NCBI GenBank assembly: GCA_913051655.1 | Contig: CAJXHI010000001.1 | Coordinates: forward strand, 1 to 64,000 | DNA: 64,000 nt | Direction of reading: 5' to 3' | From: an uncultured Alphaproteobacteria bacterium | GTDB taxonomy: Bacteria; Pseudomonadota; Alphaproteobacteria; Rhodobacterales; Rhodobacteraceae | Shown here: one piece after another, positions 5,605-10,585 of the stretch | Layout: each line of letters opens with the position of its first letter | How positions within the stretch are numbered: position 1 is the first letter of the stretch | Program-made: the position numbers and the translations under genes | Notes under the pieces: model-generated | What the model saw: only the letters and a program-made list of their open reading frames with translations | Databases searched by the model: none | Told to the model about the DNA's origin: nothing

Positions 5605-5679
5605 ATTCAGGCTGCGAATGATCAGAACAAAATTTCGTTGATTGGTAAGCCAATCTTAATCATATCTGATTGTAGGCTA

Positions 5680-6310
5680 GGCGCCTCTGGTTTCGCATAT
5701 GTGTCTCGATACCAAATCTAAACCCTAGAATGCCAGATGATGATACCGCCAAAGTATCCAACCATTGATCTGGAAATTCAACAAAAAATAGAAACCCCCA
5801 AAGCGTACACAAATAGGCAATGGGTGCATCAAAGCCTGCTTCGCCATAGGCAACCGCACGGACCAACAAAAGTTGTGACGTCATTTCGCAAACTCCCAAA
5901 AAACTCGTAAGAATAGCAGAAGAAAGGCTGACAGGTTGCCGATAATTGGGCACAACGTAGCTTAACATAATTGCACCAACAGTGCACTGTAAAGAAAAGA
6001 TGTCTAAGGGCTTTCACAGTCCCCAATATAGTGCGGGGTAATTTTATAGGTCGAATAACAGATCGCCGCAATAAGAGGCAGCACAGCATACATAATGAAT
6101 ACCTCTTTGCCTCTTCGGATAATGGTTAAGGCACCGATAACCGAATCAAGAGTACCAATAATACTCATAGGGCCATTTTGTTTCACGTAAAAACAAAATG
6201 GCACCTAGTGTGATCAAAATAGGATTCACATCCATAATCGCCGTAGCCTCTGAAAGACCGATTTCTGAAATGCTCTGGGAAAAATATATCGCCTTCAAAA
6301 GCGCAAGCGG
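5680..6310 (-). pseudogene. Decayed DMT-superfamily (EamA) transporter
   Basis: Read leftward across several frame changes, recognisable EamA pieces appear in order. They are IGLSEATAIMDVNPILITLGA (first repeat end), GPMSIIGTL, IGALTIIR, AVLPLIAAICYSTYKI (start of the second repeat), QLLLVRAVAYGEAG, then PIAYLCTLWGF, FVEFPDQW and a final GILGF. This order and phrasing are typical of drug/metabolite exporters with two five-helix EamA domains. The first three helices are missing and at least two frameshifts are needed, so it cannot make a functional carrier. It sits between the MBL gene and the end of the metal ABC operon, whose usual fourth gene (AztD-like) would be expected about here but is not seen. 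Confidence 0.7.
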
Positions 6311-6398: not shown

Positions 6399-7316
6399 TT
6401 AGTTATCAGTCTGAAGTGCCGTGAGCAGTGTTGATATATTATGTTTCAACATCTTCAGATAACTAGTCGCTGGCCCCCCCCGTTCAGAGAGAGCATCGGA
6501 AAACAGCCGCCCTCCAATCTGCAATCCGGTCTCGGAGGCAAGTTGTTCGATCAAGACAGGGCTTGTAATGTTTTCAACAAAAAGCGCAGCCGCTCTATTG
6601 GTTTGAATCTGAGTGATGAGGTTTGCCAAATCCTTTGCAGATGGCTCTGCTTCTGTGTTTATCCCGACAGGAGCCAAGAAGGTCAAATCATAGGCCTGCG
6701 CAAGATATCCAAAGGCGTCATGCGCTGTCACCACCACGCGACGATCCTTAGGCAAGGCAGAAATTGCAGCTCTGATGCTTTTATCTAAAGCTTTCAGCTT
6801 CTTCACATATTCCTGTCTATTTTTATCAATCGCAGCAGCATGCTGTGGCAATGCGGCCATCACTACGTCTGCAATATTGTTCGCATATATGACACCATTG
6901 GAGATGGAATTCCAAGCGTGCGGATCAACGTCGCCAGACACCAAAAGAGGATCGACGCCCTTCGTCGCAATGTGAACATCGGCCTGCGTTCCCGACTCTG
7001 AAATCAGAGTATTTGACCAAGTTTCAAAATCTAGACCGTTTACAAAAATGAGTTCTGCGGCTGCTACAGCACGAGCATCAGAAATGTTGGGCTGATAAAG
7101 ATGTGCATCGGCATCTGGGCCAACGATTGTTTCCACCACAGCAAATTCACCCACAATTTCTTGGATCATATCTCCCAGTATTGAGAAGCTAGCAACAATG
7201 CGAAGAGGTTTTGTCTCTGCCTGTGCTGGGAGGGCTGCCGCGCCCATCCAAATAAGACTGAAAATCATGGGCAGCCGGATTGCCTTAACCATTTTGATAA
7301 GATTGTGGTTAAACAT
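6399..7316 (-). CDS. aztC: Periplasmic metal-binding protein of an AztABC/ZnuABC-type importer
   Basis: A 305-residue cluster A-I binding protein. The start at 7316 is set by an AAGGAGACGCGAC site and overlaps the permease stop by eight bases. A Sec signal peptide ends at ALPAQA (about residue 33). Metal ligands are visible in order: His72 (DAHLYQP), His133 (DPHAW), His199 (TAHDAFGYL) and Asp274 (FSDAL). The H-H-H-D set is that of zinc-type proteins such as AztC/ZnuA, rather than the H-H-E-D set of manganese proteins. A His-rich loop between the first two ligands is absent. It delivers metal to the permease. Because the operon is led by a cobalamin riboswitch, cobalt is a real alternative to zinc. 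The usual AztD chaperone gene is not found downstream. Confidence 0.8.
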   Translation of the reverse strand: MFNHNLIKMVKAIRLPMIFSLIWMGAAALPAQAETKPLRIVASFSILGDMIQEIVGEFAVVETIVGPDADAHLYQPNISDARAVAAAELIFVNGLDFETWSNTLISESGTQADVHIATKGVDPLLVSGDVDPHAWNSISNGVIYANNIADVVMAALPQHAAAIDKNRQEYVKKLKALDKSIRAAISALPKDRRVVVTAHDAFGYLAQAYDLTFLAPVGINTEAEPSAKDLANLITQIQTNRAAALFVENITSPVLIEQLASETGLQIGGRLFSDALSERGGPATSYLKMLKHNISTLLTALQTDN

Positions 7317-8166
7317 GTCGCGTCTCCTTAAATTTACTGCGCAAACCCAAAGGGCCAAAGATTGTGGATACTGCAAAAATGACGCCCGCAACAAGAACGA
7401 TAGAGGGGCCAGTCGGTGTTTCTGGCAATACATATGAAAGGATCAAACCGACCCAGCAGCTGAGAAATGCAAAAATAAATCCAATGACAAGCTGAGCTGT
7501 GATTGTCCCAGACCAATAGCGCGCAGCAGTTGCAGGTAAGATCATGAGCCCCACCGCCATCAAAGTGCCAAGTGTCTTAAACGCCGCCAAAAGATTTAAA
7601 ACCAAAAGGAACATAAATCCCTGATCTACGATCCAAGGACGCTTCATCTGTGATTCAAAAAATACAGGATCACAGGTGCTCATTATCAATGGGCGCAAAA
7701 TGATAGCTAAGGTCAATAAGGTCACTGTTGCTACCCCCCCGACCAGCACCATTGTGGCATCACCCACGCCCAAAATAGAGCCAAAGAGAAAACTTTTAAG
7801 CGGGACAGCTGACCCCGCTGCAGAGAGGATAAAAATCCCGACCGCAAGCGAAATAAGATAGAGCGATGCGAGGCTCGCGTCACTTCGCAGGATCGTATTA
7901 CGCGCAAGATAGGCTGTGAGAACCGCAACACCAACACCAGCAATCAATCCGCCAAAAAATAGGGACGTGACCGACAATCCAGCCGTTACAAACCCAATCA
8001 CCACACCCGGTGTAATGGCATGCGCCATCGCCTCACCCGCAAGGGACAAACGACGCAAAACGAGAAAGGTACCAACCGGCGCTACTGAGGCAGAAAGCAC
8101 AGTTGTCACAACAAAGGCACGCTGCATAAACGTGTAGGTGAACATTTCTACAATAAAATCACCCAT
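7309..8166 (-). CDS. aztB: Metal ABC transporter permease (AztB/ZnuB family)
   Basis: A 285-residue polytopic inner-membrane protein of the ABC-3 permease family. It has eight or so hydrophobic segments and typical phrases: VGTFLVLRRLSLAGEAMAHA near residue 30, PGVVIGF, TLGTLMAVGLMILPAT and a final FGPLG. It forms the channel through which the metal passes. Start and stop overlap its neighbours by eight bases on both sides, so the three transporter genes are translationally coupled. An AAGGAGA at its 3' end serves the following binding-protein gene. Substrate follows the binding protein (zinc or cobalt). Confidence 0.85.
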   Translation of the reverse strand: MGDFIVEMFTYTFMQRAFVVTTVLSASVAPVGTFLVLRRLSLAGEAMAHAITPGVVIGFVTAGLSVTSLFFGGLIAGVGVAVLTAYLARNTILRSDASLASLYLISLAVGIFILSAAGSAVPLKSFLFGSILGVGDATMVLVGGVATVTLLTLAIILRPLIMSTCDPVFFESQMKRPWIVDQGFMFLLVLNLLAAFKTLGTLMAVGLMILPATAARYWSGTITAQLVIGFIFAFLSCWVGLILSYVLPETPTGPSIVLVAGVIFAVSTIFGPLGLRSKFKETRHV

Positions 8167-8914
8167 ATTGGCCGCCCTCCTCTCGGCATCTGCGAATCAT
8201 CCAGGACGCCTGACTTTCCGACATATATCCTTGTGCGACGAGGCGATCGTGAGACAGTACATCTAGGACAGGTCCAAAATTTGCAGCTCCATTTCCGAGT
8301 AAAAGTGCGTGCGAGCAATGATCCAGCACAGCTGACAAATCATGGACAACCAAAAGAACCACACGGTTTTCTTTTTTCCACCCATCTATTATCCTAAGCA
8401 GATGCTGTTCTGTATTTTGATCAACAGCCGCAAAAGGTTCATCTAGGATAATCATTGGCGCATCTTGCATGATGATACGTGCAAAGAGTGCCCGCTGGAG
8501 CTGCCCACCGGACAAAGTATGCAGGGGACGTTCGGCAAGATCCAAAACTCCGGCCTGATCCAAGGCATGATCAACTTTGCCCCGAGTGGTCGCCTTCATT
8601 CCCGAAAATGGATTAAAACCTTTCCATGTCCCCATAGCCGCCAAATCGCGGACACGGATAGGGAAACGGCGATCAAATTCCGAAAGCTGTGCTAAATATC
8701 CAATTTCAGGTGGCCGACCATTTGGCCAGTGAATGCCGCCGAGCCTAGGCTTATGCAATCCAAGCATTGTTTTAACAAAAGTGCTTTTTCCTGTGCCATT
8801 AGCACCAACCACAGCGAGGATCATACCTGTGTGAATATCGAGAGTTAAGCCAGAAAACAGGGGGGTGTGAGAATACCCCAAACTCAAAGCATGGATATGT
8901 GCAAAAACGCTCAC
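8159..8914 (-). CDS. aztA: Metal ABC transporter ATP-binding protein (AztA/ZnuC family)
   Basis: A 251-residue ATPase with Walker A GANGTGKS (residues 37-44), the signature TLSGGQLQRALFAR, Walker B MIILDEPFAAVD and the switch histidine in LLVVHDLSAVLDHC. Start is GTG at 8914, one base inside the stop codon of the preceding small membrane-protein gene (TAGTG arrangement), so translation is coupled to it. It energises uptake by the adjacent permease. The operon reads riboswitch, small membrane protein, ATPase, permease, binding protein. Confidence 0.85.
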   Translation of the reverse strand: MSVFAHIHALSLGYSHTPLFSGLTLDIHTGMILAVVGANGTGKSTFVKTMLGLHKPRLGGIHWPNGRPPEIGYLAQLSEFDRRFPIRVRDLAAMGTWKGFNPFSGMKATTRGKVDHALDQAGVLDLAERPLHTLSGGQLQRALFARIIMQDAPMIILDEPFAAVDQNTEQHLLRIIDGWKKENRVVLLVVHDLSAVLDHCSHALLLGNGAANFGPVLDVLSHDRLVAQGYMSESQASWMIRRCREEGGQYG

Positions 8915-9087
8915 TAGATGACACTAAAAATCAACATCCATAACACCAAGGATACAGCAGCAGCCGCATGGAGCAATATGAAAGGGCTAAATTCGGTGAC
9001 ACAAAAACTCTGCCTTAGCGCGTCCAGTTTATTTGGAGAAGCAGACATAAAATGCGCCTCTACCCTTTCTGCCGAGCTGTCACTCAT
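8914..9087 (-). CDS. 57-residue single-span membrane protein between riboswitch and metal ABC genes
   Basis: A short ORF starting ATGAGTGACAGC at 9087, with AAAAGGGCAAATT upstream as ribosome binding site, ending one base into the GTG start of the ATPase gene. The product starts MSDSSAERVEAHF, has a Cys (SFCVTEF) near residue 29 and one hydrophobic helix from about residue 36 to the end (FILLHAAAAVSLVLW). Position between a cobalamin riboswitch and a metal importer, with coupled translation, argues for a real accessory subunit, comparable in place to small subunits such as CbiN or CbtB. I do not recognise it as either. Function unknown; a role in metal uptake is inferred. Confidence 0.65.
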   Translation of the reverse strand: MSDSSAERVEAHFMSASPNKLDALRQSFCVTEFSPFILLHAAAAVSLVLWMLIFSVI

Positions 9088-9180
9088 AATTTGCCCTTTT
9101 CTTTAGGAGGCTTCGCGCAAATCAGACTGACCTTCATCAATTCTGATCTGAGACACCCCGCCCAGATGAATTTTCGTCCC

Positions 9181-9365
9181 AATGGCAGGTCTCCTGACTT
9201 GCGGTGTTTGTGAGTCTGCGCCTTCCCAAGCTATTGCCCAGTGGCATGTGCAAACCGTCAAACCGCTTACAGTTGCGGGGGCAGTCACAGAATTGCGCCA
9301 GATAGCACGCACTGTGTTCCCTATTAAATCCTTTGCTGAGTCGCGCTGGATACCATTTTGTATTT
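9181..9365 (-). promoter_or_regulatory. Cobalamin riboswitch
   Basis: Read leftward, the element shows the conserved cobalamin-aptamer blocks in order. These are GGTATCC near 9355, GGATTTAATAGGGAAC, CTGCCCCCGCAACTGTAAG with GCGG, CACTGGGCAAT, TTGGGAAGGCG, and the B12 box AAGTCAGGAGACCTGCC at its 3' end. Downstream, about 95 bases run to the start of the small membrane-protein gene and the AztABC-type operon. High cobalamin should lower expression of these genes, as is usual for this aptamer class. Control of a zinc-family importer is the unusual point. Confidence 0.93.
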
Positions 9366-10585
9366 GCACTCTTATTAGAATTCACTCGGCGATCAAGAAA
9401 AAAAGAAGCTTGCAATCTTATTATTAAATTGACGGGGCCCGTTGATACGCAAACTGTTCAGAAGAAACTTTCGGTTAAATTTTTTGATATAAAGACATTT
9501 TCAAACCCACTTTTTCAATGCATAGTTTTTTGTCAAAGCAATAATAGATTTTTCAACAATGCATTCTCGGCACATCGTTCAAATTCTGCTTACATTAGAC
9601 GGCTCTCTGCCGGCGGCACGATAGTGAAATTTCCAAAATCGAGGCTGCACCGTACCAGCATCACCATTCGGACATCTCCGGTATTCTGCATGATTGATGC
9701 TGAAATAAACCTGATGGCCTAGCAAAGCCTGCGATCGAGCATCACGTTTGGGTCAAAATTATGAAAATTTAAGCCGTGATAAAATGAGTCCTCACCGCCT
9801 CCAGTGCAGCATGAACAGCTTTGATATCGTCAAACTAAAGTGCAATTTTCTGACCGCGTGAAACCAGATTATCTGCAGCATGGGTATCGTTATGAAGAAA
9901 AATTTATTGTTGTGGCTTTGAGGACAGATTTCATGCACTCTGCCTCTGTGCTCCCCAACAACACAGAAAACCAACACGTTACTTCTCTGTCATTTTCTAC
10001 TTCAATATATCAAATCTTGGTGCCAAGACACAATATTAGGTGAATAAGCCTCTCTGCTAAAAAGTACTGCGCTCCAGACAGCCATGGCATCCCAAACAAC
10101 GCAGTAGCCGCATTCAAAAGCGTCTCGAGGCGCGCCGACGCATCAAAAATGGGGAGCAGCCATTTTGGATAAGCTTTTCAATGAGAGATCCGTTCCCGAT
10201 AATTACGCAGGCCGTATTCCGTAACCTCTTAATCTTCTAGCAGCATAAGTGTTTCAGCCTCAGAAAGGGATTTTATCGGACAAATAACCTATTTTTTCGA
10301 TAAAGCTGCGCCATAACATTAGACTGACGAATTTAGGTGATTTTATTGATTTGTCCTAACTCTGTCTCCTCTCCGCATATGTCGAAGCTTTAACGAATTG
10401 CATGGCGGGTCACTAACTCGGAAAATTAGCAGTCCTACACGCCCGATAGGCGGGAATATTTGCATCCCACATAATTGAGATCCCGCGCCAAAAAATACGA
10501 TGGATAGTTGACCTTTTAGCATCGGCGAGCTTCTGCTGAATGGGGTATTTTAAAATCTTGGAACTCTTTACGGGATTACAACATC
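9366..10585. other. Gene-poor region with possible unassigned coding remnants
   Basis: About 1.2 kb with no intact gene. Its right part, read leftward from about 10330 to 10060, shows protein-like stretches in shifting frames (FIEKIGYLSDKIPF, EVTEYGLRNYRERISH, KAYPKWLLPIFDASARLET, FGMPWLSGAQYFLAERL). Near 9800 there is VSRGQKIAL and DDIKAVHAALEAVRTHF. These look like one decayed leftward gene interrupted by stops, but I cannot name the family. The left part should contain the promoter for the cobalamin-riboswitch transcript. Confidence 0.4.

Follow-up and report, generated by a model that had tools for sequence, protein, structure and literature searches.

According to the literature, zinc, manganese and iron are the only metals carried by cluster A-I ABC importers (PMC7731109). 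In a review of cobalt transport, the ABC-type cobalt importer is CbtJKL (PMC7689651). In a survey of 42 Roseobacter genomes, TroA-type binding proteins were filed under manganese and zinc, and 24% of the genomes were without cbiMQ, cbtAB or corA (PMC4771312). Our literature search found no published account of a B12 riboswitch joined to a cluster A-I importer, although the RegPrecise tables and the 2003 and 2006 Rodionov papers, which lay outside this search, may list it. Here, we describe such an arrangement in the window, i.e., the whole 64,000-nt stretch of DNA that was analysed, which comes from the metagenome-assembled genome (MAG) of an uncultured member of the Rhodobacteraceae.

The riboswitch aptamer at 9167..9372 (-) matches the full-length RF00174 model (1-189) with a score of 108.4 bits (E 3e-26; the gathering score is 31.5) and contains the B12 box AGUCAGGAGACCUGCC, which makes it a member of the cobalamin (AdoCbl) riboswitch family. 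An earlier note on this DNA had placed a cobalamin aptamer directly before a metal ABC operon and suggested an Infernal search with the Rfam models as a check; the high-scoring minus-strand match agrees with this placement and replaces the proposed limits of 9181-9365. Immediately behind the aptamer, where the expression platform begins, lies the P13 kissing-loop hairpin UCUGGG-CGGGGUGU-CUCAGA (9147..9166, minus strand). This hairpin is retained among relatives with compensatory stems such as CUGGG/CCCAG, CCGGG/CCCGG and CCAGG/CCUGG.

Minimum free energy folding predicts a further hairpin, GCCU/GGGC, over the Shine-Dalgarno site of the first gene (9093..9111, minus strand). In the window it is weak, with 4 bp and an unexceptional fold energy, and many relatives have a foldable hairpin over the same site, including stronger CUCC/GGAG versions. 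No convincing terminator was detected between leader and operon: the scan of both strands gave 2 sites, compared to 0.8 expected by chance, and one of them is a weak minus-strand site within the first ORF. Cobalamin riboswitches of Proteobacteria usually act as translational off-switches. Judged from the leader sequence, B12 would repress the operon and would do so at the level of translation.

Four tightly coupled genes follow the riboswitch on the same strand, encoding a 57-aa microprotein, an ATPase, a permease and a binding protein. The AztA-like ATPase (8159..8914, minus strand; Pfam ABC_tran) starts with a GTG that overlaps the microprotein stop codon (TAGTG). It is followed by an AztB-like permease of the ABC-3 type (7309..8166, minus strand; PF00950, E 1e-45) and an AztC-like periplasmic binding protein (6399..7292, minus strand; Pfam ZnuA, E 1e-75; AztC structure 5kzj, E 1e-71), the start of which was moved from 7433 to about 7292 based on an alignment with the related locus L034. 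The ZnuA/TroA-fold binding protein, the ABC-3 permease and the ATPase, together with the histidine ligands and a DPHxW motif, place the operon among the cluster A-I importers, and the predicted metal ligands H111, H172, H238 and D313 (ORF numbering) form an H-H-H-D site. AztA, AztB and AztC are the best NCBIfam models, yet all three scores (181, 210 and 275 bits) stay below the curated equivalog cut-offs of 220, 280 and 350. Moreover, there is no AztD gene beside the window operon, and in the ligand-column alignment the D-loop of the binding protein is short and without the histidines of AztC, so that the operon is not an AztABCD system by either measure. The earlier note had likewise described an AztABC/ZnuABC-type operon with an H-H-H-D site, no His-rich loop and a missing aztD, and these points stand. 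Further along the window (5660-5968) lies an apparently decayed ORF of 102 aa, similar to a portion of the EamA/DMT permease that is intact at L034:8626-9495.

The microprotein gene (8914..9087, minus strand), which the earlier note did not list, is the conserved first gene of the operon. It encodes a one-TM protein of no known family, with 72 HMM hits among the homologous loci and no relatives found in Pfam, NCBIfam or PDB. Almost all full-length loci have a homologue, whether they carry the riboswitch or not; restriction of the microprotein to riboswitch loci was considered and rejected, since riboswitch-free copies are also preceded by one. T31, S34, W50 and I53 do not vary among 16 diverse copies, and non-synonymous changes per site are fewer than synonymous ones in all 12 pairs compared. 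In the zinc operon of Skermanella, a weak positional relative lies in front of aztA. The microprotein may be a subunit of the transporter.

A scan of 84,980 species genomes yielded 80 close homologues. The earlier note had suggested looking for the same arrangement in relatives, and 62 of the 80 loci indeed carry a riboswitch upstream, on the same strand and ~2 kb before the binding-protein gene, as counted by a two-box pattern scan with cmscan run on the pattern-negative loci and on a subset of the positives. The cmscan runs rescued three loci (L129, L139 and L141) first scored as riboswitch-free or truncated by the pattern. Ten of the 80 loci have sufficient upstream sequence and no riboswitch, and eight are cut off. 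One of the 62, in a Thiosymbion MAG, has an intact riboswitch (143 bits) in front of an apparently decayed ABC operon (L153:5426-8062), where no intact microprotein or ATPase ORF was found. The arrangement occurs in Ruegeria, Shimia, Tritonibacter, Roseovarius and Roseibium and in many MAGs of further Alphaproteobacteria. In a rooted tree, all of them fall into one supported clade, and parsimony gives five changes of riboswitch state, readable as one gain and four losses. Thus, the riboswitch-ABC arrangement, which is found in dozens of marine bacteria that produce B12, is no local accident. In Labrenzia-type genomes, a second cobalamin riboswitch lies downstream of the binding-protein gene (L118:8002-8083, L113:8033-8114), ~0.5 kb ahead of the operon for an Mrp-type Na+/H+ antiporter (MnhA-like, 973 aa), for which regulation by B12 would be odd.

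Plasmid-borne relatives with 45-50% identity in Skermanella (pSR-3) and Gemmobacter, which the earlier note did not mention, show a different setting. There, COG0523 and WD40 genes come after the ABC genes, DUF1826, a Fur-family regulator or HisI is encoded nearby, and Zur-like boxes are present, while no riboswitch was found in these Azt-like operons. The combination of COG0523 subfamily 5 with WD40 and znuABC has been described as a zinc context (PMC2770081). In a scan that covered 60 riboswitch loci of relatives, none had a Zur-like box. The close riboswitch-free homologues have zinc-type COG0523/WD40 neighbours as well, which makes it likely that in some part of the clade this type of protein transports zinc. 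Given the Zur-boxed outgroup operons with COG0523/WD40 genes, the riboswitch clade is most simply read as a zinc operon whose Zur regulator was exchanged for a B12 riboswitch. According to this model, the transporter would descend from a Zur-controlled zinc importer in which the riboswitch replaced the regulator and the COG0523/WD40 partners were lost. Because riboswitch-free members with zinc neighbours nest in the clade, either the exchange seems to have gone both ways or the riboswitch had more than one origin.

The riboswitch tracks de novo B12 synthesis. CobN or CbiC is encoded in 53 of 54 riboswitch-bearing genomes, a count that leaves out the window's own MAG and the Thiosymbion MAG, compared to 1 of 10 riboswitch-free genomes (Fisher 3.6e-9, a value inflated by kinship, with three phylogenetically independent contrasts only, mostly in the expected direction). 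In one genome (L145) the operon sits between cobB-bluB and cobD-cobO-chelatase-cobN, with cbiD and cobK nearby; in another (L101) it is followed by cobB, ~1.5 kb away, and by a corrin methyltransferase gene.

Relatives without the riboswitch-ABC operon rely on a different cobalt transporter linked to a riboswitch. In three same-genus genomes without the operon (G001, G004 and G005), the cobalamin riboswitch is followed directly by a gene of the CbiM family. Another genome (G023) has an ABC copy with COG0523 and WD40 neighbours and no riboswitch in front of it; the riboswitch of this genome precedes a CbiM-family gene. Riboswitch-linked HupE and CbtA are found in G007 and G020, respectively. 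Among 44 riboswitch-ABC genomes, searched for the CbtA, CbiM, NicO and HupE families, CbtA occurs in 3, CbiM in 6 and strong HupE in 10. None of CbtA, CbiM, NicO or strong HupE was found in eight of the 44, all eight of which have CobN; in these eight genomes, the riboswitch-ABC operon is the sole candidate cobalt importer among the families tested. In loci from Rhodospirillaceae and Magnetovibrio (L129:3734-4435, L131 and L149), the binding-protein gene has a NicO-like (nickel/cobalt permease) ORF behind it; L129 gives a Pfam match below the cut-off and L131 gives none.

The binding protein itself carries no cobalt signature in its metal ligands or its most divergent columns. The four ligands are the same in riboswitch members, nearly all riboswitch-free members and the zinc-binding AztC, and as they are identical to those of a zinc-specific protein, the sequence does not show a preference for cobalt. 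This identity, and the nesting of riboswitch-free members with zinc-type neighbours within the same clade, would fit an importer that is still zinc-specific or takes up both zinc and cobalt, the riboswitch tying general divalent metal uptake to the B12 state. We regard this as unlikely, however, since the riboswitch follows de novo B12 synthesis, the COG0523/WD40 neighbours are missing from every riboswitch locus and the operon is embedded in a cob cluster in L145.

A manganese importer serving NrdEF, the class Ib ribonucleotide reductase that works without B12 and in some relatives is under B12-riboswitch control itself, is very improbable. Two loci point in this direction: in L090 (L090:789-4727) and L089 (L089:4444-4529), a divergent cobalamin riboswitch shares the intergenic region of the operon, and in L090 the genes behind it are nrdIEF. 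In contrast, NrdF is present in only 6 of the 44 riboswitch-ABC genomes, and gene content thus rejects this as a general explanation. Manganese-binding proteins of the cluster A-I family have H-H-E-D ligands, and the protein encoded here has H-H-H-D instead. That zinc would be imported for MetE, the zinc-dependent and B12-independent methionine synthase made when B12 is short, is hardly credible despite the AztC-identical binding site and the zinc context of the sister operons, and is likewise rejected by gene content as a general explanation, because MetE (TIGR01371) exceeds its cut-off in 0 of the 44 riboswitch-ABC genomes and the only match over the cut-off in the search set belongs to a genome without the riboswitch.

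Thus, the genomic context favours cobalt as the best-supported cargo, and the operon is probably a high-affinity cobalt importer for B12 synthesis. The earlier note had proposed cobalt, or at least a link to cobalamin synthesis, and this proposal gains support from the co-occurrence with B12 synthesis, the cob clusters of L145 and L101, the complementarity with CbiM, HupE and CbtA, and the failure of the MetE and NrdF alternatives.

In the host MAG, which is 84% complete, the riboswitch of the window is the sole cobalamin riboswitch, and family searches found no CobN, CbiC or second riboswitch. All five tested genomes of the host's genus make B12. In a related genome (G006), CobN, CbiC and a second riboswitch are found on the same contig, no more than 7 kb apart, so a single gap in the MAG could explain all three absences; alternatively, the host may truly have lost its B12 synthesis genes. 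On host contig C7 (L047:9567-13463), another A-I ABC operon, of the Tro type and with two permease genes, may cover zinc or manganese.

For the cobalt importer we propose the following mechanism. Plentiful adenosylcobalamin would bind the leader RNA and promote the L5-P13 kissing interaction, which would close the ribosome site of the first gene. As the genes overlap, microprotein, ATPase, permease and binding protein would all be repressed together. When B12 is scarce, the ribosome site would open, and the H-H-H-D binding protein would pass Co2+ to the permease, through which it would enter the cytoplasm and reach the cobaltochelatase.

With moderate confidence, we further suggest that these operons form a branch of cluster A-I that is dedicated to cobalt, widespread and so far undescribed, and in which the one-TM microprotein is an integral subunit. 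The branch would have arisen through the rewiring of a zinc importer from Zur control to a B12 riboswitch. This would be a natural switch from zinc to cobalt within one conserved site, reversed where B12 synthesis was lost. Many Roseobacter TroA-type binding proteins may belong to cobalt importers. As marine algae obtain B12 from roseobacters, the route by which cobalt enters these bacteria matters ecologically. Moreover, the clade pairs zinc-context and cobalt-context proteins that are ~60% identical and share the same four ligands, which offers a direct system for studying how metal specificity is set.

Compared to known systems, the operon is closest in its parts to the zinc importer AztABCD of Paracoccus denitrificans, with which it shares the order ATPase-permease-binding protein, the H-H-H-D ligands, the NCBIfam models and the 5kzj match (E 1e-71). 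It differs from AztABCD in scoring below the three equivalog cut-offs, in lacking AztD and the D-loop histidines, and in having a B12 riboswitch instead of zinc control as well as an extra microprotein. The Zur-regulated Azt-like operons of Skermanella pSR-3 and Gemmobacter share the ABC type and a short one-TM ORF before the ATPase, but carry Zur-like boxes and COG0523 and WD40 genes in place of the riboswitch. The cobalt transporters CbiMNQO, CbtAB and HupE occupy the same riboswitch-controlled niche in relatives, but belong to unrelated protein families and are mostly absent where the riboswitch-ABC operon is present. CbtJ resembles BtuF of another ABC cluster, and CbtJKL is not homologous to cluster A-I at the family level. 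What CbtJKL of Sinorhizobium meliloti shares with the operon described here is the principle of an ABC cobalt importer under the control of an AdoCbl riboswitch (PMC7689651).
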